Part shown: in pieces, positions 2,166 through 49,125 of the stretch
Numbering within the stretch: the first letter of the stretch is position 1
Layout of the letters: every line of letters begins with the position of its first letter
Assembly: GCA_028714255.1 (NCBI GenBank)
Contig: JAQTMR010000007.1
Span: forward strand, 1-52,340
From: Phycisphaerae bacterium
GTDB taxonomy: Bacteria; Planctomycetota; Phycisphaerae; Sedimentisphaerales; Anaerobacaceae
Length of the DNA stretch: 52,340 nt
Direction of reading: 5' to 3'
Made by a program: the position numbers and the translations under genes
The notes under the pieces: model-generated
What the model was told of the DNA's origin: nothing
Databases searched by the model: none
The model's input: only the letters and a program-made list of their open reading frames with translations

Positions 2166-5100
2166 ATGAGAATATATCTTTTTTCGTTGGTAATTGTTGC
2201 GTTTTTGGCTGGTTTTGCCGCTGCCGGGCTATGCCCTGAAGGCGACCTTAGCGGCGATTGCAGGGTCGATTGGTGGGATATTAAGGTTTTCGCCGAGCAG
2301 TGGCTGAACCCCGGTGAGTGTGAAGGGGAGTCGGCTTGTGCGAATTTCGACGGCCTAAACGGGGTTGATTTTGCCGATTTTGCGTTTTTGGCTAACTACT
2401 GGTTGCGCTATGGCCCCACGCTTGTTATTAACGAGTTTATGGCCTCCAACAACAGCGATAGCAATATTTCAGACCCCTACGGCGATTATGACGACTGGCT
2501 TGAAATTTACAATTACGGTAATACGCCGATAGACCTTGCTGGGATGTATTTGACCGACGACCTCGGCGACCCAACCAAGTGGCGAATTCCTACCGGCTAT
2601 CCGGCGCAAACGACAGTGCCGGCTAATGGCTTTATAGTATTTTGGGCAGATGGGGAGCCGGCTGAAGGGCCGTTGCACGCCGATTTCAAGCTCTCGGCTG
2701 ATGGCGAGGATATATTGTTGTCCGATGCCAACGAAACGTTAATCGATGCAATATCATTCGGGCTGCAGATTGCTAATATCTCCTACCAGCGATACCCGGA
2801 CGGCGCCGACAACTGGCAATTTTCCTCCGGCCCCACTCCCGGCGCACAGAATAATCCCGCTTATCTCGGCGAGGTCGAGGAAGTCGAATTCAGCCATACA
2901 CGCGGATTTTACGATACGTCATTTAATCTTACTATTGCCTGCGTTACGCCCGGCGCGGATATCTACTACACAACCGACGGCCGTAACCCGATTGTCGGCG
3001 AGGCGCCTTCGCCGACAAGTATCCACTATACCTCACAGATACCGATAGCCAGCACAAAATATATCCGGGCAGCGGCAATGAAGCCCGGCTGGAAGCCTGC
3101 AAAAGTTGAAACGCACACATATATATTCAATGCTCCCGATGACATTAAGGCGATGCCTGTAATAGCAGTTGTGGGTGACCCGACAGAATCGCTTTGGGCG
3201 CCGAACGGCATAATGTGTACATCGCCGATAAATCGGGAACCAGGATACGAGAAACCTGTTTCAGTTGAAATCCTCAACGCTGATACCGGCGATAATTACC
3301 AGATTGACTGCGGTATTCGTATTCACGGCAATGCTCGATATAGTTATACCATCGGCGAGGACTGGCTGACCTGCTGGATTAACTATTGGGACCACCAGAA
3401 TATGAACAAATTCAGTTTCAGGTTTTACTTCCGCAGCACTTACGGCGAAGACCGCTTCGACTATCCGCTGTTTCCATTTGCACCGGAAGGAGAAAAGAAA
3501 CAAGCGATGGTCGTGCGAGGAGGAAAGAACGATTCCTGTACCCCATTTGTCAAAGATGAGTTTTCCAGACGTCTTTTCAGGTTTATGGGCGGCGTCCAGC
3601 TTACAGGAGCTCTTGTCAACCTTTATATCAATGGTGTTTATAAAGCCTATTACAATCCCTGCAATCGCGACAACGAGCAATTCTTTCAGGAATGGTATGG
3701 CTCAGATAATAACTTCGACGTGATTACCCAATCGGGCCTGAGGGATGGTGACACAATCGCATGGGATAACTTCCTTAACTATGTGGATACCCATGACCTT
3801 ACAATCCCGGCCGACTATCAGTATGTTGCCGATAATCTTGATATAGTGCAGTTCATCGACTTTTTGATTGTTGAGATTCACATAGGCAACTTTGACTGGC
3901 CCAATAACAACTGGACAGTCCATCGCGAAAAAACTGATGACGGCATATTCAGGTTCTCAATCTGGGACGCGGAGGGCATAGAACAGTGGTATTTCGGACA
4001 GCACTGCGAAAAATGCGCAGATACGGCATTCGAGGATTTTCCGAGCTACGATACAGGAACACCCAAAGGGCTCAATAACGGCCCTTGGCCTATCTGTCGG
4101 ATTTATCGCAAACTAAAGGAAAATCCTGACTTCAGACAGCTCTTTGCCGACCGCATCCACAAACATTACAAAAACGACGGCATAATGATGACTGATAATC
4201 TCCTGACGGCCTGGATTAGTACCGTCAACGAGGTGAAACCCGTCCTGCCGGTCTATGACGGCGTATTACCTCCGTCTTTTGTGGAAACAGTCTTCCTGCC
4301 GGTTCGCGAACCCTATGTACTGGCTGCGTTCGAAGACAATGACTTATATGACTCTGGCTTCGAGGCACCGACATTCTACGTAAACAGTTCTTATCAGTAC
4401 GGTGGTTATATTTCCGATGCCGATACAATCACTATCACCAAACCCGGCTCAGGAACAATCTATTATACAATTGACGGCAACGACCCGAGGGTTTCCTTTA
4501 CGGGAGCAATCTCGCCGAGCGCAATTCCGTATTCGGGCGGTTTTACTCTCGGTAGAAGCACCAACCTCCGGGCTCGCATTTACAATAGCAGCACCGGGCA
4601 GTGGAGTCCGCTTAATGAGGCGGTCTATGAGGTGGGCGACATCAGAAATTCTTTGCGCATAACTGAGATTATGTATCATCCGCAGGATACAGGCGCCCCG
4701 AACGACCCGGACACAGAATACGTCGAACTGAAGAACATCAGCAGCAGCACCATAAATTTGAATCTTGTTCAGTTCGACAAAGGCATTGATTTTACGTTCG
4801 GTCCCAACTCGCTCACGGCAGGCCAGCACATCCTCGTCGTAAAGGACAAAAACGTTTTCGAGGCCAAATACGGCACAGGAAAACCAGTAGCAGGGCAGTA
4901 CGCCGGCTCATTAGACAACGGTGGTGAGAGAGTTCGCCTGCTTGATGCGACTGGAGTAACTATTCTGGACTTTGACTATAAAGATGATTGGCGTTCTATT
5001 ACCGATGGTGATGGTTACTCGCTTACCATAATAGAGCCGACCAATCCGGATACGGGCAGCTGGGACGAAAAAGATTCCTGGAGGGCCAGTGTTTATGTGG

Positions 5101-6152
5101 ACGGCTCGCCCGGCGCAGACGACAGCGGCATTATCCCCAACCCAGGAGCTATCGTGATTAGTGAAGTAATGTCGCACTCGCATGGTGACGACCCCGACTG
5201 GATTGAATTATACAACAGCACCGCTGGTTCCATTAACATAGGCGGCTGGTATCTCAGCGACAGTGATTCGAATCTGCTTAAATATCGCTTTGCCACGGGG
5301 ACAACTATTCCGGCTCACGACTATATTGTTGTTTACGAGGACGTCAACTTCGGGCAATTGGCTGCTGACCCCGGCCGGCTGATTCCGTTTGCGTTAAGCA
5401 AGACCGGTGATACGGCCTGTCTGGCCTCTGCTCTTGATGTCAACGGGGTACCTACCGGTTATCGAAATAAGGAGGATTTTGGGGCTTCTGAAACAGGCGT
5501 ATCTTTCGGGCGATACTACAAAGCAAGTACGGACAGTTCCGACTTCGTGGCGATGGACTATAATACGCCGGGTTCTGCCAATACATATCCGAAGGTTGGG
5601 TCGATTGTCATAACTGAGATTATGTATCACCCGGATTGGCCCACGAACGGCTCCTATACCAACGACGAATACGAATATATCGAGCTTCGCAACATCTCCG
5701 GCTCAGCCGTTACTTTGTATGACTCCGGCGAAGATGCACCGTGGAAATTCACCGATGGTGTTGACTTTACCTTCCCGGCCTCTCCGAACGAAGTTAGTAT
5801 CCCTGCCGGCGGATATATATTGGTAGTCAAGAATCCTGCCGCGTTTGCCTGGCGATATCCGGGCGTACCTTCAGGTATAGTTTTCGGTCCGTACGATGGC
5901 ACGCTGGACAACGGCGGTGAAAAACTCGAACTTGGCAAACCTGGAAACGTAGATGAGGGCGTGCTGCGATATATTAACGTCGAACGAACAAATTACAGCG
6001 ACGGCTCACATCCGGAGGATTGTCCCGGCGGCGTGGACCTTTGGCCGACACAGGCCGATGGTCAGGGTAAATCGCTTACTCGCACCAGTGCTACGCTCTA
6101 CGGCAATGACCCGAATAACTGGACTGCTGCGACGCCGACCCCAGGCTCGTAA
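2166..6152 (+). CDS. Secreted CotH-kinase-family protein with dockerin-like, chitobiase-C and lamin-tail domains
   Basis: This is a 1328-residue exported protein. Order of parts: signal peptide (1-20); a dockerin-like pair of calcium loops (about 22-80: GDLSGDCRVDWWD ... NGVDFADFAFLANYW); a lamin-tail domain (about 85-200); a chitobiase/Fn3-like domain (about 260-310, YYTTDGRNP); a CotH-like kinase domain (about 330-700, with FSIWDAEG near its end); a second chitobiase-like domain (about 755-815, YYTIDGNDP); and three further lamin-tail domains (about 830-950, 990-1110, 1145-1290). CotH proteins are atypical protein kinases in Bacillus spores; in planctomycetes such giants are surface proteins of unknown role. 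The start is supported by ATAGGAG eight bases upstream. The lamin-tail domains repeat motifs such as ITEIMYHP and LDNGGE, showing internal duplication. Function beyond surface binding is unknown. Confidence 0.88.
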   Translation: MRIYLFSLVIVAFLAGFAAAGLCPEGDLSGDCRVDWWDIKVFAEQWLNPGECEGESACANFDGLNGVDFADFAFLANYWLRYGPTLVINEFMASNNSDSNISDPYGDYDDWLEIYNYGNTPIDLAGMYLTDDLGDPTKWRIPTGYPAQTTVPANGFIVFWADGEPAEGPLHADFKLSADGEDILLSDANETLIDAISFGLQIANISYQRYPDGADNWQFSSGPTPGAQNNPAYLGEVEEVEFSHTRGFYDTSFNLTIACVTPGADIYYTTDGRNPIVGEAPSPTSIHYTSQIPIASTKYIRAAAMKPGWKPAKVETHTYIFNAPDDIKAMPVIAVVGDPTESLWAPNGIMCTSPINREPGYEKPVSVEILNADTGDNYQIDCGIRIHGNARYSYTIGEDWLTCWINYWDHQNMNKFSFRFYFRSTYGEDRFDYPLFPFAPEGEKKQAMVVRGGKNDSCTPFVKDEFSRRLFRFMGGVQLTGALVNLYINGVYKAYYNPCNRDNEQFFQEWYGSDNNFDVITQSGLRDGDTIAWDNFLNYVDTHDLTIPADYQYVADNLDIVQFIDFLIVEIHIGNFDWPNNNWTVHREKTDDGIFRFSIWDAEGIEQWYFGQHCEKCADTAFEDFPSYDTGTPKGLNNGPWPICRIYRKLKENPDFRQLFADRIHKHYKNDGIMMTDNLLTAWISTVNEVKPVLPVYDGVLPPSFVETVFLPVREPYVLAAFEDNDLYDSGFEAPTFYVNSSYQYGGYISDADTITITKPGSGTIYYTIDGNDPRVSFTGAISPSAIPYSGGFTLGRSTNLRARIYNSSTGQWSPLNEAVYEVGDIRNSLRITEIMYHPQDTGAPNDPDTEYVELKNISSSTINLNLVQFDKGIDFTFGPNSLTAGQHILVVKDKNVFEAKYGTGKPVAGQYAGSLDNGGERVRLLDATGVTILDFDYKDDWRSITDGDGYSLTIIEPTNPDTGSWDEKDSWRASVYVDGSPGADDSGIIPNPGAIVISEVMSHSHGDDPDWIELYNSTAGSINIGGWYLSDSDSNLLKYRFATGTTIPAHDYIVVYEDVNFGQLAADPGRLIPFALSKTGDTACLASALDVNGVPTGYRNKEDFGASETGVSFGRYYKASTDSSDFVAMDYNTPGSANTYPKVGSIVITEIMYHPDWPTNGSYTNDEYEYIELRNISGSAVTLYDSGEDAPWKFTDGVDFTFPASPNEVSIPAGGYILVVKNPAAFAWRYPGVPSGIVFGPYDGTLDNGGEKLELGKPGNVDEGVLRYINVERTNYSDGSHPEDCPGGVDLWPTQADGQGKSLTRTSATLYGNDPNNWTAATPTPGS

Positions 6153-6158: not shown

Positions 6159-6608
6159 TTATTGACGATTAGAATCTTCGTCTTTTGCTTGTTCTTTGGT
6201 ATTGGTGAATTGCTTTTCTACATGCGCCAAGCCCAGCAGTACCACAATCGCTATGACAGTTGTAATAATCGCCAGGCTGTACAACTTTGCGCCGCAGGCC
6301 ATTCCTATGCTTGCGACCATCCATATTGTTGCCGCGGTAGTCAGGCCGTGGATGCCGCCTCTGTCCTGAATGACGGCGCCTGCACCGAGAAAGCCTACGC
6401 CTGTTACGATTTGAGCGGCGATTCTTGTGACCGAATCATTATCGCCGGACATTCTTTTTGAGATTATAGTAAAGACCGCTGCACCAAGGCATATCAGGAT
6501 ATTCGTTCGCAGGCCGGCGGGTTTGTGCTTGAGCTGACGTTCAAGGCCAATGACAGCTCCGCAGCCGACCGCCAGCAGTATAGCAGATATGTCGCTTGTC
6601 CAGTGCAT
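6159..6608 (-). CDS. MgtC/SapB family membrane protein
   Basis: This encodes 149 residues with about four hydrophobic segments. Family signatures are visible: GCGAVIGLERQ near residue 16, KPAGLRTNILICLGAA (about 30-45), and GVGFLGAGAVIQD followed by GLTTAATIWMVASIG (about 71-98). MgtC proteins are inner-membrane proteins linked to growth in low magnesium and to control of the F-type ATPase in pathogens; the housekeeping role of the short environmental versions is not settled. Only the N-terminal membrane domain is present, with a short charged tail and no regulatory C-terminal domain. The gene converges on the CotH gene with six bases between the stop codons. Confidence 0.88.
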   Translation of the reverse strand: MHWTSDISAILLAVGCGAVIGLERQLKHKPAGLRTNILICLGAAVFTIISKRMSGDNDSVTRIAAQIVTGVGFLGAGAVIQDRGGIHGLTTAATIWMVASIGMACGAKLYSLAIITTVIAIVVLLGLAHVEKQFTNTKEQAKDEDSNRQ

Positions 6609-7333: not shown

Positions 7334-8329
7334 CTATCTCTCTATCAGCGTTTCATCGACCTGCATGCCGAAATGCCTGCCGGCCTTTTCGATATGGCCG
7401 AGGACTTTGTCGCCCGGTTTCAGGCTCGTAATCGAAATCGCTTTTCCATCGGGACTAACTAGGCGAATCGTCTCGGCATTTTGCAAAACAAGGCTTATCG
7501 GCATACCTTCGGCTTGGGCTTCGATGAGCATCATAGGTCTTTTTTCTATTTTGTTTCTGCCTAAATAAGCCGTTTGGCTTTTGCCATGAAAATCCACCAG
7601 CATTACCTCGTCGCCGGTTTTCAAATCAGCGAGATATTTGGTTTTGCCAGCCGGTGTTAAAGTATATGCATGTACCGCACCGGCATTGACGCGGAAGGGC
7701 CGAGACGCTACGTATGGATTGTCGATGGATTCGGAATGCACTAAGAAGAAGCCGGAGGCAGTGTTACCGACGAGAATACCTTCGCCCAGTTCCATTTGCG
7801 TGCAGGTATCGAGGCAGGAGCGGTCGCCCATTCCGAGTTGTTTGATATTTATTATCGTTGCTTCAACCAGTGACATTTTCTCGCTGATACCGGTTATAAC
7901 CTCGGCGGTCTTTTTTATTTCATTTACGTCGGTCGTGTTAAGAACAACGCCATCGACGCCTTTTTCGAGAATTTCGACCATAAGTTTGGCCTGCTCGCTA
8001 TTTTGAACCTGTACCATAATATTTTTGCTTCGCTGGGCAAGTAGGTTCTCTATCGGGATAATGGTCCAATCTAACATTCGCAGGACAACGATTTTATTTT
8101 CGGGTACTGCGGCGGCTTTATTTTCATCGGCTTTATCTTTTATGTCTATAAATTCGACGTCGATGCCTGGTTTGATATCGCCGGCGTTCTCGACCGTTTT
8201 GATTTTGCCGAACTGGCGAACGGTATCACTTTTGCCGTCCGGCAGAACCACTGCGTCAGCTCCGCTTTCCAGAGCGGCTATGGCGATTTCTTTTTTATAA
8301 GGAACAATATTTACCCACAGTTTTTTCAT
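7334..8329 (-). CDS. Archaeal-type 3-dehydroquinate synthase II (MJ1249/GriH family)
   Basis: This encodes 331 residues if translation starts at the ATG of MKKLWVN (8329). Upstream in-frame ATGs at 8458 and 8362 would add residues encoded by a heptanucleotide tandem repeat, so I reject them. The family core is strongly conserved: GMGDRSCLDTCTQM, then EGILVGNTASGFFLVHSE, then NPYVASRPFRVNAGAVHAY (about 180-245). In methanogens this enzyme converts 2-amino-3,7-dideoxy-D-threo-hept-6-ulosonate to 3-dehydroquinate with NAD. The Streptomyces homologue GriH instead makes 3-amino-4-hydroxybenzoate with partner GriI. The likely partner aldolase is encoded 2.1 kb upstream on the same strand (10450-11244). 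A classical AroB is also present, so which product this enzyme makes is open. Confidence 0.87.
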   Translation of the reverse strand: MKKLWVNIVPYKKEIAIAALESGADAVVLPDGKSDTVRQFGKIKTVENAGDIKPGIDVEFIDIKDKADENKAAAVPENKIVVLRMLDWTIIPIENLLAQRSKNIMVQVQNSEQAKLMVEILEKGVDGVVLNTTDVNEIKKTAEVITGISEKMSLVEATIINIKQLGMGDRSCLDTCTQMELGEGILVGNTASGFFLVHSESIDNPYVASRPFRVNAGAVHAYTLTPAGKTKYLADLKTGDEVMLVDFHGKSQTAYLGRNKIEKRPMMLIEAQAEGMPISLVLQNAETIRLVSPDGKAISITSLKPGDKVLGHIEKAGRHFGMQVDETLIER

Positions 8330-8380
8330 ATTGAATAGCTTACACTTATTTTCCGGTTTCATCAATAGTTTTAGTTTATT

Positions 8381-8422
8381 GGTAATTGGTAATTGGTAAT
8401 TGGTAACTGGTAACTGGTAAAT
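8381..8422. repeat. Heptanucleotide tandem repeat (GGTAATT-type, six copies)
   Basis: Six contiguous 7-base units are visible: three GGTAATT, two GGTAACT and one GGTAAAT. They lie just upstream of the 3-dehydroquinate synthase II start. In frame on the minus strand they would encode a repeating NYQLPIT pattern, which creates false upstream ORF extensions. Short tandem heptamers of this type are well known in cyanobacterial intergenic DNA. Confidence 0.93.
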
Positions 8423-9069
8423 TGGGTTTGTTTGGGTTCGTTTTAACCAAGTGTCCATTGTGCATTTCTCGCTTTAATTCATTGTTAATGCTAATGTTAC
8501 AGGCATTTGACTTTTTTTGAAATTGGGTTCGTTTTGCATAATTTAGTTGTTTTGATTGACCCGTTTTCGCCAAAGGCTTCGCCGTGGCAAGTTGAATTTT
8601 AGCCACAGAGAACACAGAGGGCACAGAGAATACAAAGTAAAAAAGGTGAAAGTGAAAAGTAAAAGCCGTGTTTTGGTTTTTCATAATGTAATACCTCCCT
8701 CTCATAAATAGGGTGAACATGCGCGTTTGGAGCTAAAATAATGGGTTTTTTAGGGGCTAAAAAGTTGTAAATAGTTATATGGCGAGGGATAAAAAAAATT
8801 AAAATTAGTCGTTTTTGGTGTGCGGGTAGTTACGCATTTGATTGAATCACTGATTACGCTGATTAAAAGGATTTTTAATTGGCCACGAAAAGGCATCCGT
8901 CTTCGCTGCGCTTCGCCGAGACAGGCGAAGAAATTCACCACGTCCTTGGGACTCCTTATGGAGAATGGACACGAATTAACACGAATTTCTTCACCGCAGA
9001 ACACGCGAAGCACGCAGAGGGTTGAAAGTTGCAAAAATAAAATAGGTTTGACAAGCTCACTATAGATAA
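8423..9069. repeat. Gene-free mosaic of dispersed-repeat fragments
   Basis: I see no credible gene between 8330 and 9119. The stretch is assembled from repeat-like pieces. TTGGGTTCGTTTT occurs at 8432-8444 and again at 8523-8535. An imperfect ACACAGAG/GCACAGAG run lies at about 8601-8632. A second run containing ACGCGAAGCACGCAGAG is near 9002-9018. A GGCCACGAA ... ACACGAATTAACACGAAT motif (8881-8889 and 8970-8987) is split by about 80 bases that contain a CTTCGCC/GGCGAAG inverted pair. Open frames here encode low-complexity peptides with patterns such as KTNPNKPN, which I interpret as translated repeats. Parts should recur elsewhere in the genome; I could not test that. Confidence 0.7.
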
Positions 9070-9096
9070 GGGCTGCGAGTGTTATGCTCACAGCCC
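9070..9096. terminator. Hairpin downstream of the SUMF1/PEP-CTERM gene
   Basis: GGGCTG (9070-9075) pairs with CAGCCC (9091-9096), with an inner GAG/CTC pair after one mismatch and a seven-base loop. It lies about 25 bases beyond the minus-strand stop codon at 9120. There is only a weak T-rich tail on the minus strand (CCCTTATCT), so it may be a weak terminator or an mRNA end-stabilising hairpin. Confidence 0.5.
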
Positions 9097-9119
9097 TTTG
9101 ATTTAGCAAATAATAGTTT

Positions 9120-10001
9120 TTACCTTTTGCGTTTTCGCAGCAAAGCCAAACCGCCGAGAGACAGCATAAGAATCGTTGCTGGTTCGGGAACAGAGGCGAC
9201 TCTGAACCCGAGCCTGCCCTCGTCTTCACTATACGGCCAGCCATTACTTCGGAATGACGAGGAGAGGTAAGACTCGTTGAATAAAAAACAGCCACCACGC
9301 AAAACGTAAGATGGTTCATTATTAAACAGAGTCTCATTCCATTCCCAGACATTGCCCATCATATCGAAAGTACCATTCTGCTCCATAGTACCGCTTCTAA
9401 CATTCCAAGGGCTGCCGACAGCGTTGTTATAATTTGTATTAACTCCCGAAACTGGTGGAATATCTGTGCCGTTGGCATAGAGTGAATATCCGCTGCCATC
9501 GGGCTTGTAGTAAGCCGCTTTGTACCATTCATCTTCTGTTGGGATGACATAAACCATACTATAAGTCGATATGGCCGAGGCACGGTCAATTGTAATACTG
9601 CCGTCTGTACCAAGCTGATAAGCCCCAAGACTCTTATCACCACTAGTCAGGTAGTTGCAAAACTGAGCCGCTTCGTACCAGCTTATGTAATTGGCCGGCT
9701 GTTGGACATCCGTGTAAGTGTTGCTTTTGTCATAAGCATAGCTTGGATTGCCAGTAGGAGTACCAGCGATAGTAACAAAAACATTCCATTGGGCATTAGT
9801 AATCTCATCTTCGCCGATACGGTAATTATAACCAACCGCACCACATCTGTAAGGATACGCTTCGGGCCTGGTGTCTCCAAGATTACCCGCATTGCCGATT
9901 GTCACAAAATCAATGTCGATTCCTCGTATGATTTCAGCCGAGGTTAAATTCGCTAAGGTCATCGTACACATAATTATTACCAAACCTATTGTTTTTTTCA
10001 T
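9120..10001 (-). CDS. SUMF1/FGE-fold exported protein with PEP-CTERM sorting tag
   Basis: This encodes 293 residues. There is a signal peptide (1-22) and a SUMF1-type C-type-lectin-like domain (about 30-265) with the usual landmarks: GEDEITNAQWNVF, ISWYEAAQFCNYLT, PTEDEWYKAAYY, FDMMGNVWEWNE, and a final RLGFRVAS. The C-terminus is a PEP-CTERM signal: VPEPAT, a hydrophobic helix, then RKRKR. This targets the protein for exosortase-dependent processing at the cell surface. True formylglycine-generating enzymes use a cysteine pair before the final GFR motif; here that position reads SSSFRSNG without cysteine, so sulfatase activation is unlikely and a binding role is more probable. The start has a strong Shine-Dalgarno (GAAGGAGAAG). 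A structured leader lies upstream. Confidence 0.9.
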   Translation of the reverse strand: MKKTIGLVIIMCTMTLANLTSAEIIRGIDIDFVTIGNAGNLGDTRPEAYPYRCGAVGYNYRIGEDEITNAQWNVFVTIAGTPTGNPSYAYDKSNTYTDVQQPANYISWYEAAQFCNYLTSGDKSLGAYQLGTDGSITIDRASAISTYSMVYVIPTEDEWYKAAYYKPDGSGYSLYANGTDIPPVSGVNTNYNNAVGSPWNVRSGTMEQNGTFDMMGNVWEWNETLFNNEPSYVLRGGCFLFNESYLSSSFRSNGWPYSEDEGRLGFRVASVPEPATILMLSLGGLALLRKRKR

Positions 10002-10034
10002 CTCTCTTCTCCTTCAAAAAAGTTATTAACCCGT

Positions 10035-10125
10035 CCTTCGTCCAACCTATGGTGTCCACAAGGGACTTAAGGGCTGCGGAGGACAAGTGTTTTTCCTCAG
10101 GGCAACAACGCCGAGAGGAATAATA
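10035..10125 (-). promoter_or_regulatory. Possible structured 5' leader of the SUMF1/PEP-CTERM gene
   Basis: Upstream of the start at 10001, read on the minus strand, two hairpins can be drawn. One is CCTC-TC-GGC-GTTGTT-GCC-CT-GAGG (10095-10118). The other is GTCC-CTTGT-GGAC (about 10056-10068). I do not recognise a known riboswitch class. It could be a dispersed repeat or a leader controlling the gene. Confidence 0.3.
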
Positions 10126-10314
10126 AACCAAAAAACAAAGTGGTTAAATTTACGACAAATTAGGGAAATGTTTCATCTTCTTATCCTCCAAACCTCACTA
10201 ACAGGAAATCCTCTGCCAAATTTGGCCTTACTTTACCACTGATACTAAACTTGTGTAAAGAGGTTTTTGCCATAAATTGTAATTATGGCTACCAAATCAC
10301 AACATAGTAAGGTT

Positions 10315-10332
10315 GTCGGGGTAAACCCCGAC
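10315..10332. repeat. REP-like palindrome GTCGGGG-TAAA-CCCCGAC
   Basis: A perfect 7-bp stem with a 4-base loop lies in the 448-bp gene-free interval 10002-10449. A related but imperfect GC palindrome (AGGGCGGGG/CCCCACCCT) occurs at about 11322-11343. I see nothing else coding in this interval; the rest is AT-rich promoter-like DNA. Confidence 0.8.
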
Positions 10333-10344
10333 CTACAGTAAGCT

Positions 10345-10386
10345 GGATTCCCGCTCCCTTGGGGATAAATTTCGCGGGAATGACAG
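10345..10386. repeat. REP-like palindrome, GGATTCCCGC ... GCGGGAATGACA
   Basis: ATTCCCGC (10347-10354) is the exact inverse of GCGGGAAT (10374-10381), with 19 bases between. The same motif with one changed base recurs at 15640-15664. This resembles the very widespread bacterial repeat whose two arms read as GGAATGAC and GGATTCC. Confidence 0.82.
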
Positions 10387-10449
10387 TAAAGAGTATTGGC
10401 CGCGGACTTACGTCCTGCGGCTCTGTAGTGTTGACGGGGCTAAACGGTT

Positions 10450-11244
10450 TTAGCTTTGAAGCATTTTGATTGCTTCTTTTACGCTGATGCCTTTGTGAAC
10501 CATTTTGCAAAGAGTGCCGACTAATTTTTGCGGGTCTTTGTGCTGGAAGGCGTTTCGGCCAATAGACAGGCCCGCGGCGCCTGCCTTCAATGCGTCATCA
10601 ACCATCTCGAAAATGTCTTTGTCGCTTTTCATCTTAGGCCCGCCTGCGATTACTACCGGCACGGGACAACCCTGTACTACCTCGGTGAAACTTTTTATAC
10701 TGCCGGTGTAGGGAACCTTAACGATATCGGCACCGAGTTCGGCTCCGACTCTTGCGGCGTGTTTGACGTTATTGACGTCGAATTCGTTTTTGATTTTCGG
10801 GCCGCGAGTGTACATCATCGCGATAAGCGGCATCTGCCATTGCATACATCGCTCGCTTATAAAACCGAGTTGGCCTAACATTTCTTTGTCTGTTTCGGCA
10901 CCTAAATTTATATGAACCGATACGGCGTCAGCTCCGAGCCTGATTGCTTCTTCGACGGTGCAGACCAGTTCTTTAGCGTTCGGGTCGGGACTCATTGATG
11001 TTCCGCCTGAGAGGTGGATAATCAGGCCGACATCTTTGCCAGCACCCCTGTGGCCGGCGCGGACGATTCCTTTGTGCATCAGAATGGCGTTTGCTCCGCC
11101 TGCCACGATTTTGGAGATGGTGGTTCGCATATCGGCCAGTCCATCAATAGGGCCGACCGTAACGCCATGGTCCATCGGAACGATTACTGTTTTGCCGGAG
11201 TTTCGGTCGATTATCCGCTCCAGCCTTATCTTTTTCCCTATCAT
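10450..11244 (-). CDS. ADH synthase / archaeal-type class I aldolase (AroA'/GriI family)
   Basis: This encodes 264 residues forming a (beta/alpha)8 barrel of the DeoC/FbaB class. Expected catalytic residues are visible: Asp25 in VPMDHG, Tyr145 in MMYTRGP, and the Schiff-base Lys176 in [14 protein letters not shown] (about 200-204) is the phosphate-binding loop. The family makes 2-amino-3,7-dideoxy-D-threo-hept-6-ulosonate from aspartate semialdehyde and a keto-sugar phosphate (archaeal route to 3-dehydroquinate). GriI in Streptomyces instead joins aspartate semialdehyde with dihydroxyacetone phosphate, and other relatives are fructose-bisphosphate aldolases. A 3-dehydroquinate synthase II gene on the same strand favours the first two options over glycolysis. 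It lies 143 bp downstream of the DRE-TIM aldolase gene, with a palindrome in the gap. Confidence 0.87.
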
Positions 11245-11387
11245 TATCGTATCTCCAAATCACGGTTTTAATTGTAAAATCTACCTGAATTTGGCTAAAA
11301 GGCAAGTGAAAAAGTAAATATAGGGCGGGGCGAACCCCACCCTGTGGTTTGTGCGGTAATGAAGCAGTGGCCAAAACTCTTACGGGA

Positions 11388-12332
11388 CTAATCGTGAGCT
11401 GTGCGTATCTTCTCGTAGAATTCTGCGTATTTATCCTTGTCTTCGGTCTGGCGTACTTCTATAGCCAGGCGGGGATGCTCATTCAGTATGCCTGTAACCA
11501 TATACGGCAGGATGTAGCCCCATTCAATCTCGTTACGCATAGGTATCATATAATCCTGTATGACTTTGAGAATAGGGGTGAGGTTGAACTTGGGGTTTTT
11601 CAGGAAACCGACCAACAGTTCAAGACAGCAGTTTCCCGGCCCGCGGCCTATACCGTAAAGCGAGCCGTCCACAAAATTGCAATTGTGGATTATGCCTTCT
11701 ATCGTATTGCTGAAGGCGAGCTGCTGGTTGTTGTGGCAATGGACGCCGAGGGTTTTGCCGGGCAGATGTTTCTGATACAGCTTGACCAGGTACTCAATCT
11801 GCTCGCAATACAGTGCGCCGAAGCTGTCAACAATATAAACCACGTCAACCGGAGTTTTCGCAAGTTGCTCAAGCGCTTCGATAAGGTCCGGCTCGATTTC
11901 TTTCGAGATAGCCATTATGTTGCAGGTGGTTTCATAGCCGAGGTCGTGACACTTATTGATAAGCTCTACTGCGCTATCGATATATTTAACGTAGGTAGCT
12001 GCGCGAATCATATCGATGGGACTTTCGTCAGCGGGAGCGAATACCTGTTCTTTTACCCTGTAAGAGTCAACCATAACGCTGATTTTAACATTGGATTCGA
12101 TGCCGTCTATTATCTGCCTTATTTTGTCGTCGTCGCAATATTTCCAGTCGCCGAAGTCTTTGGGCGGGTATAACTCTCTGCTGCTTCGGTATCCGAACTC
12201 CATATAGTCGATACCGGCTTTTGAAAGGGCCTGGTAAACGGCCCGGACGAATTCGTCCGTGAAGTAATGATTATTAATAAGTCCTCCGTCTCTTATTGTG
12301 CAGTCGAGTACCTTTATTTGTTCTCTGTACAT
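11388..12332 (-). CDS. DRE-TIM metallolyase / 4-hydroxy-2-oxovalerate aldolase-like protein
   Basis: This encodes 314 residues. The N-terminal signature VLDCTIRDGGLINN (about 9-22) supplies the D-R of the DRE-TIM superfamily (HMG-CoA lyase, isopropylmalate synthase, MhpE/BphI). The metal-binding HCHNN motif lies near residue 198. The central VDVVYIVDSFGALY strand is typical of the aldolase branch. The usual C-terminal DmpG/LeuA regulatory domain is absent; the last 60 residues are short helices. Its start lies 13 bases after the aroB stop, so the two are very probably co-transcribed. The substrate cannot be read from the sequence. The position beside aroB and the archaeal-type aldolase hints at a carbon-carbon bond step linked to aromatic precursors, but that is inference. 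Confidence 0.8.
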   Translation of the reverse strand: MYREQIKVLDCTIRDGGLINNHYFTDEFVRAVYQALSKAGIDYMEFGYRSSRELYPPKDFGDWKYCDDDKIRQIIDGIESNVKISVMVDSYRVKEQVFAPADESPIDMIRAATYVKYIDSAVELINKCHDLGYETTCNIMAISKEIEPDLIEALEQLAKTPVDVVYIVDSFGALYCEQIEYLVKLYQKHLPGKTLGVHCHNNQQLAFSNTIEGIIHNCNFVDGSLYGIGRGPGNCCLELLVGFLKNPKFNLTPILKVIQDYMIPMRNEIEWGYILPYMVTGILNEHPRLAIEVRQTEDKDKYAEFYEKIRTAHD

Positions 12333-12345
12333 ATTCTGGCCTTTT

Positions 12346-13440
12346 CTAAAGTTTATGTAATACTTTTTTTACCAAGTCGGGTGCGACTTCGACGGCCCAT
12401 TGGCCATTCTGATGGTGAACCCGACCTATGTCACTGATTAGTACAAACCTTGGCCGTTTGCCAACGGTTTTTTTGTCATGTTTCATCAGGTCGATGAGAG
12501 TATTTTCGGCTAAATTTGAGGGCAATTTCACGGGTACGCCGAGTTTTTTGAAAATTCTTCGGATTTTATCGAGCCTTTCGGGTTTAGAAAGGCCCATTTC
12601 AAGCTCTATTAAGCCTGCGGCTATAATCCCAATGGCAACGGCCTCGCCGTGCAGTAGCTCGAAACCGCTGGCGGCTTCGACGGCATGGCCTATGGTATGG
12701 CCGTAGTTAAGCATTTTCCGCTGGTTTTTCTCTGTGGGGTCGGCCTCTACAACGCCGCCTTTTATTTTGCAATTGTAAAGGGCCATCTTTTCGAGCACGT
12801 CCGGTTTTCGGCTGAGAATAGCATCGAGATTGCTCTCAAGAAAATCAAAGTATTGGCTGTCGGCGATTAGTGCGTGTTTTACGGACTCAACCAGCCCGGC
12901 CCTGAACTGCCTGTCGTCAAGCGTGGTTAAAGTAGTTACGTCGATGTAAATAGCTGATGGATTCCAGAATGTGCCGAAGGCGTTTTTACTTATACTCGAA
13001 TCAACGCCGGTCTTGCCTCCGATTGAGGAGTCCGCCTGTGCGACCGTGGTTGTCGGTATGTGGACGACGGGAACGCCTCTTTTGAAAATCGAGGCGGCAA
13101 ATCCCGCGATGTCGCCGACTGTTCCGCCGCCGAGGGCGACGATGAGGCTGTCTCTGCCGAGGCGGGCCTTTTCCATCGCTTCGACTATCGAGATGACGGT
13201 GTCGAATGTTTTAGAAGTTTCGCCGGCAGGGGCTATTACAAACGAGGGGATGTCTTTTTTGCCGGTTAGTTTTTGCAGGTGTCCCGCGGAGACGAGATTT
13301 TCATCAGTGACAATAAACTTGCCCGGCTGGTTAAAATCGTTTTCGATTTGTGTCCACAGCGAACCCAAAAATTCGGCGCCGATTTTTATCGGGTAACTTC
13401 TTTGTTCTGTTATTGGGATTTTTATTTCAAGCTCGGTCAT
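12346..13440 (-). CDS. aroB: 3-dehydroquinate synthase (classical AroB)
   Basis: This encodes 364 residues, the usual AroB length. It converts DAHP to 3-dehydroquinate, the second step of the shikimate pathway, in the cytosol. Visible motifs are: the NAD-binding ALGGGTVGDIAGFAAS (about 101-116), TTVAQADSSIGGKTGVD (about 130-146), and the metal ligands in RAGLVESVKHAL, LNYGHTIGHAVE and LLHGEAVAIG. These match dehydroquinate synthase rather than the epi-valiolone synthase branch, though sugar-phosphate cyclases are close and I cannot fully exclude a specialised one. It heads a minus-strand operon with the DRE-TIM aldolase and is divergent from the AroD-AroE fusion, sharing a roughly 160-bp promoter region. 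Confidence 0.93.
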   Translation of the reverse strand: MTELEIKIPITEQRSYPIKIGAEFLGSLWTQIENDFNQPGKFIVTDENLVSAGHLQKLTGKKDIPSFVIAPAGETSKTFDTVISIVEAMEKARLGRDSLIVALGGGTVGDIAGFAASIFKRGVPVVHIPTTTVAQADSSIGGKTGVDSSISKNAFGTFWNPSAIYIDVTTLTTLDDRQFRAGLVESVKHALIADSQYFDFLESNLDAILSRKPDVLEKMALYNCKIKGGVVEADPTEKNQRKMLNYGHTIGHAVEAASGFELLHGEAVAIGIIAAGLIELEMGLSKPERLDKIRRIFKKLGVPVKLPSNLAENTLIDLMKHDKKTVGKRPRFVLISDIGRVHHQNGQWAVEVAPDLVKKVLHKL

Positions 13441-13598: not shown

Positions 13599-15143
13599 AT
13601 GGCAACGAAAATAGCGGTTCCTATAGCAGCGGGAAATCTGGACCAGGCGAGGCAGCAAATTAAAACCGCCGAGTCTTCTGGTGCGGAGATGCTTGAATTG
13701 CGAACGGATTACCTCGAAAATCTAAGCGTCGATTTGGTTAAGAGTTTAATTGCCGAAGCCAGGGCCGCGACACTCGCTCCGCTGCCGATAATAGTAACCT
13801 GCCGGGACATTCGGCAGGGGGGTGCGATTGACTATCCGGGCCGATTGCGGATAGAAGTACTCACCGAGGCCTTGAAAGCGGGCGTCGAATTTATCGACCT
13901 CGAATACGAGAATTTTCTCTCCTCGGAAAATCAGGAAAGAATACGCAGGGCGATGTCGCAGGCATCGAAGGGCCGATTGATTTTATCCACCCATAATTTC
14001 GAGACGAAATTTCCTAACATCGTCAAACTCCATCGTCATATCCAGACCTTGTACCCGGCAGCGATTCCAAAATTGGTCTATAAGGCCAATCATATCAACG
14101 ACTGCTTCGAGGCCTTTGATTTGCTGCACAAAACCAGCGGCGAGCGAATCGTCTTTTGTATGGGCCAGGTCGGTGTTATAAGCAGAATCATCGCAAAAAA
14201 GCTTAATTCTTTCGTTACATTCGCAAGTATAGATGACAAAAACGCAACAGCACCGGGGCAGCTAACTATTGAGCAACTCAAAACAATTTACCGCTGGGAT
14301 TCCATAGATGCTGACACTAAACTTTATGGCGTAATAGGCTCTCCGGTCGGCCATTCGATAAGCCCGGTTGTGCATAATGCATGCTTTGCCGAGGCGGGCG
14401 AGAATAAATTGTACCTGCCTTTGCTTGTCGAGGGCGGCAGGGACGAGTTTGATTATTTTCTACGCCAAATTTTCATCAAAAACTGGCTCGGCTTCCGCGG
14501 TCTTAGTGTAACAATTCCGCATAAGGAAAACGCCCTTAATTTCGTCAAAGAAAACCATGGCGTTGTCGAACCTTTGGCCGAGAAAATCGGTGCCGTCAAT
14601 ACCATTATCGTCGGCCCCAACGACATATTATTTGCTTACAACACAGATTACTCAGCGGCGATGGATGCCATTGGCTCCAAAGTCGATTTGAAAAATTTGC
14701 CGGCGGCTGTCATCGGGGCGGGCGGTGTGGCAAAAGCCATAGTGGCAGGTCTAAGCCAGGCGGGCGCGAAAGTCACTATTTACAACCGTACCATCGAAAG
14801 GGGCGAAAAGCTTGCTGCCGAGTTCGGCTGTGAATTTGCGCCTTTGGATAATTTAGCGAATCTCGAAGCGAAATTAGTTATAAACTGCACAAGTATCGGG
14901 ATGTATCCGAACATCGATGAAACGCCTGTGCCGGGGGATTACCTGAAAAAGGATATGGTGGTCTTTGATACTATCTATAATCCTCCGCGGACATTGCTCT
15001 TGAAGCAAGCCGAGGAAAAAGGTGCTCAAACAATTGAGGGTTTGTTAATGTTCATCGGTCAGGCCGCCGCCCAGTTCAAACTCTTCACTGGCAAAGCCCC
15101 TGATACTAAACTTATGCGAAAAACGATACTTAATTACCTTTGA
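13599..15143 (+). CDS. aroDE: Bifunctional 3-dehydroquinate dehydratase (type I) / shikimate dehydrogenase
   Basis: This encodes 514 residues from the ATG at 13599 (a GTG at 13590 is possible; neither has a good Shine-Dalgarno). Residues 1-235 are a type I dehydratase: ELRTDYLE strand, His132 in LSTHNFE, the likely Schiff-base Lys158 in AIPKLVYKA, and TAPGQLTIEQL near the end. Residues about 240-514 are shikimate dehydrogenase: LYGVIGSPVGHSISP, VTIPHKENAL with the catalytic lysine, NTDYSAAM, the NADP loop VIGAGGVAKA and NRTIERGEKLA. The protein therefore carries out steps 3 and 4 of the shikimate pathway and channels the product of AroB. AroD-AroE fusions are typical of plants, chlamydiae and some planctomycetes. 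It is divergent from aroB. Confidence 0.95.
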   Translation: MATKIAVPIAAGNLDQARQQIKTAESSGAEMLELRTDYLENLSVDLVKSLIAEARAATLAPLPIIVTCRDIRQGGAIDYPGRLRIEVLTEALKAGVEFIDLEYENFLSSENQERIRRAMSQASKGRLILSTHNFETKFPNIVKLHRHIQTLYPAAIPKLVYKANHINDCFEAFDLLHKTSGERIVFCMGQVGVISRIIAKKLNSFVTFASIDDKNATAPGQLTIEQLKTIYRWDSIDADTKLYGVIGSPVGHSISPVVHNACFAEAGENKLYLPLLVEGGRDEFDYFLRQIFIKNWLGFRGLSVTIPHKENALNFVKENHGVVEPLAEKIGAVNTIIVGPNDILFAYNTDYSAAMDAIGSKVDLKNLPAAVIGAGGVAKAIVAGLSQAGAKVTIYNRTIERGEKLAAEFGCEFAPLDNLANLEAKLVINCTSIGMYPNIDETPVPGDYLKKDMVVFDTIYNPPRTLLLKQAEEKGAQTIEGLLMFIGQAAAQFKLFTGKAPDTKLMRKTILNYL

Positions 15144-24027: not shown

Positions 24028-25353
24028 TTAATTTTCTCTGAAACGCTTAATGATAACAACATTATTTTGTCCGCCGAAGCCGAAAGATTCATTCATCGCG
24101 ATATCGACCTGCATTTTTCTGGGCTTATTCGGGACATAATCGAGGTCAAGCTCGGGAGCAGGGTCGTTTAGGTTCATAGTCGGCGGGACTATATTGTCCC
24201 GTATTGCCAGGACACATGTAATTAATTCGGCGGCACCAGCGGCCCCGATTAAGTGCCCGAGGGTGCTTTTGACGCTGCTGGCAGGGGTGTTTTTCGCTTT
24301 TTCCTTAAAGACTGCTTTAATAGCCTTGGTTTCTATCGAATCGTTTTCCGACGTGCTTGTGCCGTGTGTGTTTATGTAATTCACATCGCCGCAGCTAATT
24401 CCTGCATCAGCCAATGCCCGGGTCATCGCTTGTATTGCTCCTCTGCCTTCTTCGTGCATATCCGTGATTCTGAATGCGTCGGAGCTGCTGCCGTAGCCGA
24501 TGACTTCAGCCAAAATTTTTACCCCTCTTTTTTTCGCTGAATCCAGGCTTTCAAGAATAACTATCGCCGCACCTTCACCGATAACAAAACCATCTCTGCT
24601 GGCAGAGAATGGTCTTGAAGCTGTTTCGGGACTGTCGTTTCGCCTCGATAGCGCCGTAAGCCGGCTAAAACCAGTGATACCCAGCGGGTGTATCATCGAG
24701 TGCGCCCCGCCTGCAATCACCACATCCGCACCGCCCCGGCGAATTATCATCGTTGCTTCGCCGACCGATTGGGTGCTCGCTGCACAGGCGGTAAGACAGC
24801 TTCTTACAGGCCCGCGAGCGCCGGTGAGCATCGCAATATGAGCGGCAGGCATATTCGCTTCCTGTTCTAATTCGTGCATTGCTTTCATTTCTACCGCAGC
24901 GGTATGAGCCCATTTTGTCCAGTCCATCTGGTTTGTCTGGTTGTCCCACCCGGCTGCGATTGCGCCGAAAAATGCTTCGTGATTTGCCGCTCCTTCACCT
25001 GCTCCAAGATAAATCCCCATTCGTTTTCGGTCGATGCCGTCTGCGGGGGTGTCGGTTTCGACATCAATACCAGCTTGTTTGCACGCCTGAACCGCCGCTC
25101 CGACGGCAAACTTGCTTCCTCGATTGCCGTCTTTGTGCAGATTGGGGTTCTTCGTGAACTTTGTAAAATCGTAATCTTTTACTTCGGAACTAAATGTTGT
25201 CGGGAACGTCGACGCGTCGAAAATGGTAGTCTTGGCGGCTCCGCTTTTACCGGCCAGCACCGCCTGCCACATTGTTTCAACGTCGTGACCGAGCGGACAA
25301 ATAATCCCCATGCCTGTAATTACAACTCGCTCATTTTTTCCATCATGCGTCAT
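24028..25353 (-). CDS. fabF: Beta-ketoacyl-ACP synthase (KAS II type), catalytic
   Basis: This encodes 441 residues of the thiolase fold. It elongates acyl chains on ACP by decarboxylative condensation with malonyl-ACP. The full Cys-His-His triad is present: Cys190 in LTACAAST, His330 in INTHGTST and His367 in STLGHLIGAAG. The end FGFGGQNNVVIIK is typical. It lies six bases downstream of a second, altered ketosynthase, so the two probably form a heterodimer or act in succession, as in type II polyketide or ladderane-like systems. Slightly longer than E. coli FabF (413) through an insertion at about 135-170. Confidence 0.93.
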   Translation of the reverse strand: MTHDGKNERVVITGMGIICPLGHDVETMWQAVLAGKSGAAKTTIFDASTFPTTFSSEVKDYDFTKFTKNPNLHKDGNRGSKFAVGAAVQACKQAGIDVETDTPADGIDRKRMGIYLGAGEGAANHEAFFGAIAAGWDNQTNQMDWTKWAHTAAVEMKAMHELEQEANMPAAHIAMLTGARGPVRSCLTACAASTQSVGEATMIIRRGGADVVIAGGAHSMIHPLGITGFSRLTALSRRNDSPETASRPFSASRDGFVIGEGAAIVILESLDSAKKRGVKILAEVIGYGSSSDAFRITDMHEEGRGAIQAMTRALADAGISCGDVNYINTHGTSTSENDSIETKAIKAVFKEKAKNTPASSVKSTLGHLIGAAGAAELITCVLAIRDNIVPPTMNLNDPAPELDLDYVPNKPRKMQVDIAMNESFGFGGQNNVVIIKRFREN

Positions 25354-25359
25354 TTTAAT

Positions 25360-26718
25360 CTAATTCTCAAATTTCTTGAGTATAACCGCTGCTGTTTGTC
25401 CGCCATACGTATAGCCGCAACATAGAATGCAGCGGATGTCGGCTTTGACAGCTTCTTTAACGATGTTAAGATTGCATTCTGCTGCTTTTTTCGTGCAGTT
25501 TTTCGCAGCCGGTATAAGACTATCTCTCATTGCGCAAACCGCCGCGATGACATCGAGTCCGCCGCAGGCTGCTCCTGTGTTACTGAGCATACTTTTAGTT
25601 GGCCAGACAGGAATTCGTTTTGTTTCTGTACCCATCGCGGCCTCTATTGCTTTGGCCTCGGCAGCGTCGTCCTGCGGTATGCCAACGCCATGCGGGATTA
25701 TCAAATCTATGTCCTTGGGTGAAATATTGGCCTGTGCAATCGCATTCTCGATGGCGATGGTGAGACCATAGCCATCCGACTCAATATGTTCGTATGCCGG
25801 GTTTATACTGGTGCTTTGGCCGGTGCCGATGATTTCCGCGTAAATTCTTGCGCCGCGTTTGATTGCGTTATCGAGATTCTCCAGGACAACGATTCCGCCT
25901 CCGTCGCCGAATACCGAGCCGCTTGCCTCGGCGTCGAAAGGTCTGCATGCCGCTTCGCTGTCATCGTTATGTTGAGTGGTTGCTCTTTTAATCAGGCACT
26001 GACGCATTATCAATACGGGATTTATCTTCGATTCCGCGCCGCCGGCCAGTGCGATATCGCTGCTGCCGCGTGCAATAATCTCCGCTGCCTCGGCTATCGC
26101 GATATAGCCCGCAACCTCGGCACAGGTTATCGTGTTGCTCGGCCCTTCGATATCGTGAATAATACCTATATGACAGGCCAGCATATTGGGCAGGTATTTC
26201 AGCAGCCATAATGGTGTCACCAGGTCAAGACCATCTTTGCCCCATTTACGCATATCGAACTTGCCGTCTGCAATGCTGGCCGCTACTGCAGGGGCCATCT
26301 CAACCACGTCACAGCTGATAAGCCCCGCCCCCATATTGATTGCCATACGTTCCGGCGTCACGTTGATTTTTTCCGGGTCGATTCCCTTTGTGACAAGTCC
26401 GCTGTCAGTCATCGCCTCTTTTGCTGCTACAACGGCCAGTTCAATGTCTTTGGACATCAGCTTGACGGCCTTGCGATGGCTCTTCGGGACGTATTCCTGT
26501 ATCTTGTAATCAGGGACCTGCCCCGCTAATTGACAGTCGAAACCGGCAGGGTCGAACGCCGTGATTTTTTTTATTCCGCACGCCCCGGCACACAACCCTG
26601 CCCACATATCATTGACAGTTAATCCGAGAGGGCTTATAGCGCCAAGACCGGTTATTACTACGCGGCGATAGTCATCTGCCGTAAGGTATGCTGTGCACTG
26701 TGGACGGGCTGAATTCAT
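25360..26718 (-). CDS. Beta-ketoacyl synthase homologue with Cys-His-Asn active site
   Basis: This encodes 452 residues from the ATG at 26718 (a TTG at 26721 precedes it). The fold is the same as its neighbour (VVITGLGAISPLGL at the start, GYTYGGQTAAVILKKF at the end). The nucleophile Cys199 is kept in NTITCAEVAG and His343 in IIPHGVG, but the second histidine of the usual GHxxGAAG motif is replaced: the segment reads KSMLSNTGAACG with Asn380. A Cys-His-Asn triad is normal for KAS III, not for KAS I/II. The protein could be a condensing enzyme with changed priming chemistry or a chain-length-factor-like partner of the catalytic KS downstream. Confidence 0.88.
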   Translation of the reverse strand: MNSARPQCTAYLTADDYRRVVITGLGAISPLGLTVNDMWAGLCAGACGIKKITAFDPAGFDCQLAGQVPDYKIQEYVPKSHRKAVKLMSKDIELAVVAAKEAMTDSGLVTKGIDPEKINVTPERMAINMGAGLISCDVVEMAPAVAASIADGKFDMRKWGKDGLDLVTPLWLLKYLPNMLACHIGIIHDIEGPSNTITCAEVAGYIAIAEAAEIIARGSSDIALAGGAESKINPVLIMRQCLIKRATTQHNDDSEAACRPFDAEASGSVFGDGGGIVVLENLDNAIKRGARIYAEIIGTGQSTSINPAYEHIESDGYGLTIAIENAIAQANISPKDIDLIIPHGVGIPQDDAAEAKAIEAAMGTETKRIPVWPTKSMLSNTGAACGGLDVIAAVCAMRDSLIPAAKNCTKKAAECNLNIVKEAVKADIRCILCCGYTYGGQTAAVILKKFEN

Positions 26719-26723
26719 CAATC

Positions 26724-27200: not shown

Positions 27201-27275
27201 TTTTGTCTGCTAAAATCATCGGCAGGATTGTCCACTGTCAACCTGCCGATATTTTCTCAAAGGTAATTCGAATTA

Positions 27276-27671: not shown

Positions 27672-27720
27672 AGTTACCTCCTGTATTTTCTTGTTTTGTC
27701 CATGAACTGCCAACTACGAG

Positions 27721-28185: not shown

Positions 28186-28320
28186 AATCCCGGCTATTGT
28201 AGCCATATGCAATCATTTTTCCAGACTTTTTTTCCTTCCTTTTTTGTGCCTCCCGCAGATGAGCTTATTTCCATCAAAATTAATGTTGGAAAACTTATAC
28301 GATTGGATATACTTTTATCC

Positions 28321-48936: not shown

Positions 48937-49125
48937 CTATTTCCCAACACCGAGCTTTTTAAGTATCGACATCATCGGGCACCAGTTGGTAAACGCGGAC
49001 TGCAGTAAATTAAGCCCCACAAAGCCGGTAAAAAACAGCCAGTAGGGACTATGGTAATACGCCAGAAAAACGCTGACAAGTATGAAAAATCCCGCTATTG
49101 CCCGTAAGTATCTTTCAATTGTCAT
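48937..49125 (-). CDS. DUF2892 small inner-membrane protein
   Basis: This encodes 62 residues with two transmembrane helices. The start [16 protein letters not shown] and the [12 protein letters not shown] end (NWCPMM) are the hallmarks of DUF2892 (YgaP C-terminal-like) proteins. The cysteine in NWCPMM is typical. The function is unknown. Its ATG overlaps the stop of the RND gene by one base (TAATG), so it is translationally coupled to the transporter. Confidence 0.9.

Follow-up and report, generated by a model that had tools for sequence, protein, structure and literature searches.

Why would a bacterium keep, in one neighbourhood, the genes of two different enzyme systems for 3-dehydroquinate (DHQ)? 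The question is raised by a window of 52,340 nucleotides, positions 1 to 52,340 of contig JAQTMR010000007.1 (assembly GCA_028714255.1), from a Phycisphaerae bacterium of the order Sedimentisphaerales, family Anaerobacaceae. It encodes a classical 3-dehydroquinate synthase, AroB, and an archaeal-type pair made up of 2-amino-3,7-dideoxy-D-threo-hept-6-ulosonate synthase (ADHS) and 3-dehydroquinate synthase II (DHQS II), with a gene for an HMGL-like aldolase lying on the same strand between aroB and the ADHS gene, 13 bases downstream of aroB. We propose, at a probability of roughly 0.6, that the archaeal-type pair now feeds the shikimate pathway as its working entry and that AroB and the HMGL-like protein form a second module.

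The archaeal-type pair and its product

The first-pass annotation had named AroB and both members of the pair, and curated models bear out all three identities at the positions it gave: DHQS II scores 468.7 bits on NCBIfam NF002627 (cut-off 392), ADHS 377.3 bits on TIGR01949 (cut-off 299.45), and AroB 328.4 bits on TIGR01357 (cut-off 305). ADHS has the predicted Asp25, Tyr145 and Lys176, which align to identical letters in MJ0400 and which we take to be the catalytic residues. By score it is also closer to MJ0400, its best solved relative at 355 bits, than to the fructose-bisphosphate aldolases, the best of which reaches 141 bits; on the Fbpase1_Arch model it has 207.5 bits, below the cut-off of 430. 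The open frame of DHQS II reaches 8458, and the ATG at 8329 gives a 331-residue protein that spans the full PF01959 model (418.8 bits) and keeps the columns invariant among the aligned rows. In a comparison with solved structures, on which its NAD and metal sites might be mapped, the DHQS II sequence matched no family member, just designed barrels in weak repeats. By sequence, DHQS II and ADHS are members of the archaeal-type families that make DHQ.

Enzymes of the same two superfamilies also make 3-amino-4-hydroxybenzoate, and the first-pass annotation had considered that the pair might act like GriI/GriH, leaving AroB for housekeeping; according to passages of PMC6692506, the substrates of BagB/BagC, which are homologous to GriI/GriH, are aspartate semialdehyde and dihydroxyacetone phosphate. 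Scores, motifs and gene context all speak against this reading of the pair, and we reject it as very improbable. DHQS II reaches 199 bits on the BagC_FevH model (cut-off 750) and 251 on NF002625 (cut-off 375), and two Streptomyces plasmid pairs show the reverse order, with 439 and 453 on BagC_FevH, 239 and 249 on NF002627, and 260 and 251, under the cut-off, on TIGR01949. The DHQS-II-type proteins of these plasmids pass NF002625, though not the BagC_FevH cut-off of 750, and their genes adjoin adenylate-forming enzymes and flavoenzymes. When the two types are aligned they differ in conserved stretches, for example LVHSES..NPYV in the DHQ type against LCVSETHPLPYM in the 3-amino-4-hydroxybenzoate type, and LQNAETIRL against VQDDWHVRV. 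The window pair lies beside aroDE, and a Pfam scan of 37 window proteins turned up neither an adenylating enzyme nor an oxygenase. One plasmid protein from Sinorhizobium and one from Klebsiella fall under every DHQS-II cut-off.

In AroB-less relatives that have chorismate synthase, the pair is the sole candidate source of DHQ found. Nine genomes of the family, each at least 90% complete, have DHQS II and neither AroB nor a synthase for 3-deoxy-D-arabino-heptulosonate 7-phosphate (DAHP), and eight of them encode chorismate synthase (the exception is G122); six of the nine were seen to have ADHS next to DHQS II (none within 1.5 kb in G209; G192 and G214 fell outside the check). Therefore, the pair is very probably a shikimate entry that forms DHQ, and we assign it this role in the window genome with considerable confidence. 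By analogy with Methanocaldococcus, ADHS would join L-aspartate semialdehyde to 6-deoxy-5-ketofructose 1-phosphate, DHQS II would deaminate and cyclise the product to DHQ, and the neighbouring AroDE fusion would carry DHQ on to shikimate.

The first-pass annotation had called this arrangement unusual for the group, which is true of the class and not of the family. Of 150 genomes sampled from the class, eight have DHQS II, comprising all five sampled members of the window's own family (f1) and three of one genus in another family (f10), and in the whole of f1 it is present in 66 of 89 genomes. Like the window pair (469 and 377 bits), the f10 proteins pass NF002627 (472) and TIGR01949 (357). At all seven other loci from the class search (L003-L009), about 1 kb or less separates ADHS from DHQS II.

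AroB in a genome with no recognisable DAHP synthase

In addition to passing its curated model, AroB matches 3okf with 213.6 bits in phmmer and keeps the columns conserved among 27 aligned DHQ synthases from the order and beyond (one row partial). Membership in the AroB-related family TIGR04425 was considered and rejected (236.8 bits against a cut-off of 400). The first-pass annotation had suggested looking for a DAHP synthase gene elsewhere in the genome (2.41 Mb in 39 contigs, 98.92% complete, 1.81% contamination), and none is recognisable: the sole PF00793 match, at first a candidate for an overlooked DAHP synthase, is KdsA by its curated model and stays below the cut-offs of the DAHP synthase models, and PF01474, the class II DAHP synthases, gave no match in this genome, to which that search was confined. 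AroB is therefore left with no known source of DAHP. This absence, the HMGL-like gene and the AroDE fusion had all escaped the first-pass annotation. Thus, of the proposal that the cell keeps two routes into the shikimate pathway, one part stands, as the genes of two DHQ systems do adjoin, but for the classical route no first enzyme can be recognised. A housekeeping role for AroB becomes doubtful, as nothing known makes its substrate. The missing DAHP synthase suggests that the archaeal-type pair has replaced the classical entry.

To place this genome among its relatives, PF00793 rows of the family were sorted by score, aligned length and open frame into KdsA, DAHP synthases Ialpha and Ibeta, and fusions of AroG with chorismate mutase. 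The sorting was checked with models on ten proteins, namely two fusions, four Ialpha (three from the family, one from elsewhere in the order), one Ibeta and three KdsA; one fusion was additionally checked with Pfam, and the window KdsA separately. The PF00793 type of about 140 bits in relatives was counted as a DAHP synthase because it proved to be the AroG-chorismate mutase II fusion, which by this sorting occurs patchily in 33 of the 89 family genomes (for example at L213:2406-3494 and L214:2325-3413) and is also listed for Bacteroides thetaiotaomicron in the part of PMC1173090 consulted. For G193, G194 and G227, fragments or incomplete rows supplied some or all of the basis for the DAHP synthase state, and G161 is counted as lacking the enzyme despite an unassigned 93-residue fragment.

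The same surveys gave some separate observations on the pathway. Two genomes of the order (G028 and G110; 99% and 95% complete) have three PF00793 matches each and neither an AroB ortholog nor DHQS II. In a family genome of one contig (G178, 90% complete), chorismate synthase is present and DHQS II, AroB and DAHP synthase were not found. The family has two forms of chorismate synthase itself (about 439-457 and about 304-325 bits), and some genomes have both (G230, G201, G198-G200, G150-G154 and others).

A DAHP source might simply have been missed, through a gap in the assembly, an unfamiliar synthase encoded elsewhere, or a KdsA that accepts erythrose 4-phosphate as well, with AroB working as usual. 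An assembly in 39 contigs that is 98.92% complete leaves some room for this. However, 11 further family genomes with both AroB and the HMGL-like gene also lack a DAHP synthase; they belong to several genera, with three in g127, and two of the eleven (G182 and G211) are fragmentary. Moreover, a moonlighting KdsA fails to explain why AroB follows the HMGL-like gene, since KdsA is present in AroB-less genomes too. We regard a missed source as unlikely.

AroB is intact and under purifying selection, and is probably not a relic. Among genomes lacking DAHP synthase, the ratio of non-synonymous to synonymous rates (dN/dS) for AroB is 0.113-0.123 in four unsaturated pairs (G172/G173/G175 and G164/G165), and it is 0.175 in the sole unsaturated pair with a DAHP synthase. 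Pairs with a dS of at least 2 give 0.056 without and 0.071-0.084 with the enzyme. For the HMGL-like gene, the unsaturated pairs give 0.051-0.075 without and 0.096 with DAHP synthase; values for DHQS II are 0.043-0.084. Both AroB and the HMGL-like gene thus have lower ratios where DAHP synthase is missing than in the pair that has it, which, together with the intact conserved columns, argues against the idea that the two are leftovers of a former classical pathway on their way to being lost, with AroB unimportant. That idea would account for their repeated joint absence from relatives and for the chorismate synthase kept by DHQS-II genomes without AroB; we give it a small share of the probability.

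AroB and the HMGL-like aldolase

The second module is suggested by the company that AroB keeps. Across the 89 family genomes, 52 have a strong AroB and two more have weak matches alone; such weak AroB-like matches (33-38% identity), which are the sole ones in G227 and G229 and second copies in other genomes, were not counted, and neither were two short pieces in G200. The HMGL-like gene is present in 38, and in 35 of these no more than 200 bases separate it from aroB, the exceptions being a contig end (G159), a split (G181) and a gene on another contig (G203). Among genomes at least 90% complete, taken irrespective of contamination, 20 lack and 20 have a DAHP synthase. Those lacking it have both AroB and the HMGL-like gene (8), neither (10) or AroB only (2), with no case of the HMGL-like gene only; those having it show both in 12, AroB only in 7 and neither in 1. 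Over all 89, the genomes without DAHP synthase divide into 12 with both, 4 with AroB only, 1 with the HMGL-like gene only (G159, whose contig ends inside that gene) and 30 with neither, and those with DAHP synthase into 25, 11, 0 and 6.

A quick single-gene tree of 56 DHQS-II proteins, in which 24 of 53 inner branches are open, gives the same picture by descent. Over its 32 rows without DAHP synthase, AroB and the HMGL-like gene go together in five of five independent supported pairs (nine pairs on all branches); over its 20 rows with DAHP synthase, AroB does not follow the HMGL-like gene in two or three of four supported pairs. In this count G159 and G168 were set aside for their cut contigs; G152, G165 and G188 lack a DHQS II row, and the rows taken did not include G225. 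The contrast with genomes bearing DAHP synthase is the informative part of the co-occurrence. The congener G158 (98% complete) keeps the order AroDE-ADHS-DHQSII and has no AroB-HMGL segment.

The HMGL-like protein falls under every NCBIfam cut-off, with 4-hydroxy-2-oxovalerate aldolases as its nearest models; on TIGR03217 (DmpG) it scores 110.6 bits against a cut-off of 286, so that it is not a member. Its nearest solved relatives by sequence are 3dxi, a Bacteroides 'putative aldolase', and DmpG, and an AlphaFold2 model built from 17 rows (pLDDT 89) agrees, with 3dxi (Z 31.3) and DmpG (1nvm, Z 30.1) closest among 50 listed entries of Z 22.0-31.3. The metal-ligand motif, D15, H198 and H200, is invariant in the 17 rows, and the fold and motif are those of a DRE-TIM metallolyase. 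The residue aligned to what we take to be His21 of DmpG is Leu.

AroB requires a 2-keto-3-deoxy sugar acid phosphate, and a DmpG-like metallolyase could make one from pyruvate. We infer every reaction given here, and the order of steps in the second module, from such family properties: the HMGL-like enzyme would use pyruvate to build a phosphorylated 2-keto-3-deoxy acid, be it DAHP itself or another sugar acid, for AroB to cyclise. That AroB and the HMGL-like protein act together we judge an even bet, and the exact chemistry is much less certain than that. In a milder form of the proposal, AroB may also close the ring of a compound other than DAHP.

A stronger version would make the HMGL-like protein a non-orthologous DAHP synthase, one that joins pyruvate to erythrose 4-phosphate and is unrelated to the two known families, so that the cell would have two full DHQ routes and an ordinary AroB. 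This would suit the conserved columns of AroB, the pyruvate aldolases that are the closest folds of the HMGL-like protein, and the way AroB goes with it where DAHP synthase is lacking. There is a precedent in an engineered KDPGal aldolase, which reportedly makes DAHP with pyruvate as donor. KDPGal aldolase gives DAHP in E. coli, with phosphoenolpyruvate named as the donor in the portion of PMC3018139 consulted. However, no genome was found to rely on AroB and the HMGL-like gene alone: 11 of the 12 DAHP-synthase-less genomes with both have DHQS II, and in the twelfth (G165) ADHS sits on a contig with less than 2 kb beyond it, while its congener G164 has DHQS II about 5 kb past ADHS. Moreover, the HMGL-like gene and AroB coexist with DAHP synthase in 25 family genomes. 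We consider this version unlikely, and keep to the two-module proposal with the substrate of AroB left wider than DAHP.

Relatives of the HMGL-like gene were also compared elsewhere. The closest named ones come from assemblies labelled Sedimentisphaerales, Phycisphaerales, Phycisphaerae or Planctomycetota. In the class sample, all eight of the 36 strong matches that reach at least 70% identity adjoin AroB, and no AroB match was found in the flanks (up to 1.5 kb) of the 22 loci retrieved from the other 28. Outside the window's family, five of five genomes of the same order with an HMGL-like gene of at least 70% identity have it next to AroB, and four of these five have a PF00793 match of DAHP-synthase strength and length, judged by score and not by model (the fifth is G099). 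As a separate observation, relatives of 51-62% identity (L241-L312) come from Omnitrophota, Nitrospina, Elusimicrobia, Fibrobacter and others. On one plasmid, no partner of note was seen beside the HMGL-like gene. A common third partner was also sought and dropped: an apt-like gene precedes aroB in 11 of 30 compared loci, some of which also have sigma-factor, rpsA-like (S1-like) and ispH-like genes (all named by eye), giving no hint of function. The window aroB stands beside aroDE and the archaeal-type pair.

A number of observations weigh against the two-module proposal as a whole. For the pair, the structure model of DHQS II has a pTM of 0.55 (moderate confidence) with barrel-type matches at low TM, and was left unused, and of 29 further family loci (L100-L128) 20 have ADHS within 1.5 kb of DHQS II, ADHS itself having never been searched across genomes. 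For the second module, AroB occurs without the HMGL-like gene in 11 of the 36 AroB genomes that have DAHP synthase, and the HMGL-like gene is therefore not needed for AroB as such. It does so too in four genomes lacking DAHP synthase. In one of these (G168) the contig ends 141 bases after AroB, and two are fragmented assemblies (G152, 94% complete, 660 contigs; G225, 90% complete, 1150 contigs) with congeners that carry DAHP synthase. In the fourth (G188), ADHS directly follows AroB with no HMGL-like gene between; this genome is 64% complete, and its DAHP synthase state is hence uncertain. Of the 12 genomes that have both genes and lack DAHP synthase, two (G182 and G211) are fragmentary, and the enzyme is present in their congeners. 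Five supported pairs give a sign test p of 0.06, which cannot fall lower, and joint loss is easy because the genes are adjacent and one deletion can remove both. Among 80 named HMGL-like loci, AroB lies beside the closest eight, an AroB match is nearby in L256, and there is none in the available DNA of 71. In other phyla, a KDPG/KHG-type aldolase directly adjoins HMGL-like relatives in 27 of the 78 loci, out of 102, that could be anchored, with one example confirmed as PF01081 and the other neighbours mixed. The HMGL-like relative and the KDPG/KHG-type aldolase are a recurrent aldolase pair.

The locus and known systems

The features of the locus are collected below.

Features of the window around the genes for 3-dehydroquinate, in order of position
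Feature	Position	Strand	Basis
MgtC-family membrane protein	6159..6608	-	PF02308 138 bits
DHQS II, 3-dehydroquinate synthase II (aroB' type), DHQ-type subfamily	7334..8329	-	PF01959, NF002627, DHQ-type motifs
FGE-sulfatase/SUMF1-like domain protein with PEP-CTERM, between ADHS and DHQS II	9120..10001	-	PF03781 75.5 bits, PF07589
ADHS, 2-amino-3,7-dideoxy-D-threo-hept-6-ulosonate (ADH) synthase (aroA' type)	10450..11244	-	TIGR01949, MJ0400 likeness, D25/Y145/K176
HMGL-like DRE-TIM metallolyase, DmpG-like, uncharacterised	11388..12332	-	PF00682 82 bits
AroB, classical 3-dehydroquinate synthase	12346..13440	-	TIGR01357, phmmer to 3okf
AroD-AroE fusion (type I dehydroquinase and shikimate dehydrogenase), divergent from aroB	13599..15143	+	PF01487, PF08501, PF18317, TIGR00507

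The frame of the AroDE fusion opens at a GTG at 13590, and alignment with the congener G158 makes the ATG at 13599 the probable start; the protein scores 151.5 bits on PF01487 and 231 on TIGR00507, over its cut-off of 200. The FGE-sulfatase/SUMF1-like gene is probably unrelated to the pair that flanks it, and the stretch between it and DHQS II (8330-9119) holds frames with repeated NYQLPITN-type stretches and is probably non-coding. Five family loci (the window's own, L221, L223, L224 and L231) have a member or relative of the MgtC family near DHQS II. Further out, a large secreted-looking protein at 2166-6152 has lamin-tail, Fn3-associated and CotH kinase domains. The reverse strand at 24028-28212 encodes in succession a pair of beta-ketoacyl synthases, a pair of FabA-like proteins and an acyl carrier protein, with a GNAT gene opposite; together with an MMPL transporter at 49125-51962, these genes resemble a small type II fatty-acid or aryl-polyene-like cluster.

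Our findings suggest that the first two steps of the shikimate pathway have been replaced within a planctomycete family, in which apparent intermediate states can be seen: classical enzymes only, both sets, the archaeal-type pair with a stranded AroB, and the archaeal-type pair only. They also single out one uncharacterised aldolase family, present in several other phyla, whose function is directly testable because its partner AroB has a predictable reaction. If the aldolase does make DAHP, then pathway annotation by known DAHP synthases would be wrong for such genomes. In the open-access literature, with subscription papers mostly outside it, we found nothing on shikimate in Sedimentisphaerales, dehydroquinate in Phycisphaerae, HMGL-like proteins with dehydroquinate synthase, or DmpG or DRE-TIM enzymes with heptulosonate, and passages on gaps in bacterial amino-acid synthesis do not name the archaeal-type pair.

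The archaeal-type pair is already known in bacteria. According to the relevant passages, the aromatic supraoperon of Desulfovibrio vulgaris begins with aroA' and aroB' (PMC1173090), and a like cluster in D. hydrothermalis is headed by an aldolase and a 3-dehydroquinate synthase (PMC4162548); haloarchaeal homologues of the pair have been tested with mutants, as excerpts of PMC4162585 relate. What we describe is thus a new occurrence in a planctomycete family, and the association of AroB with the HMGL-like gene is the new part.

Set beside the known systems, the window shares its two archaeal-type families, over the curated cut-offs, with the aroA'/aroB' genes of Methanocaldococcus, haloarchaea and D. 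vulgaris, and its pair, like that of D. vulgaris, stands beside another shikimate gene. It differs from all of these in its planctomycete host, in having aroB and an HMGL-like gene in the same group, and in keeping AroB without a DAHP synthase. With the classical entry of DAHP synthase and AroB it has in common an AroB that passes its curated model with conserved columns kept, but the genome has no match for the first enzyme; the AroG-chorismate mutase II fusion that is counted as DAHP synthase in family relatives is absent from it. GriI/GriH, BagB/BagC and FevI/FevH belong to the same superfamilies as the window pair, which has the scores and motifs of the other subfamily and no antibiotic-type partner among the scanned proteins. 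Finally, the HMGL-like protein has the DRE-TIM fold and the RD and HxH columns of DmpG and 3dxi, but differs in its low TIGR03217 score in the Leu at the His21 position, and in its scanned window neighbours, which include no acetaldehyde dehydrogenase.

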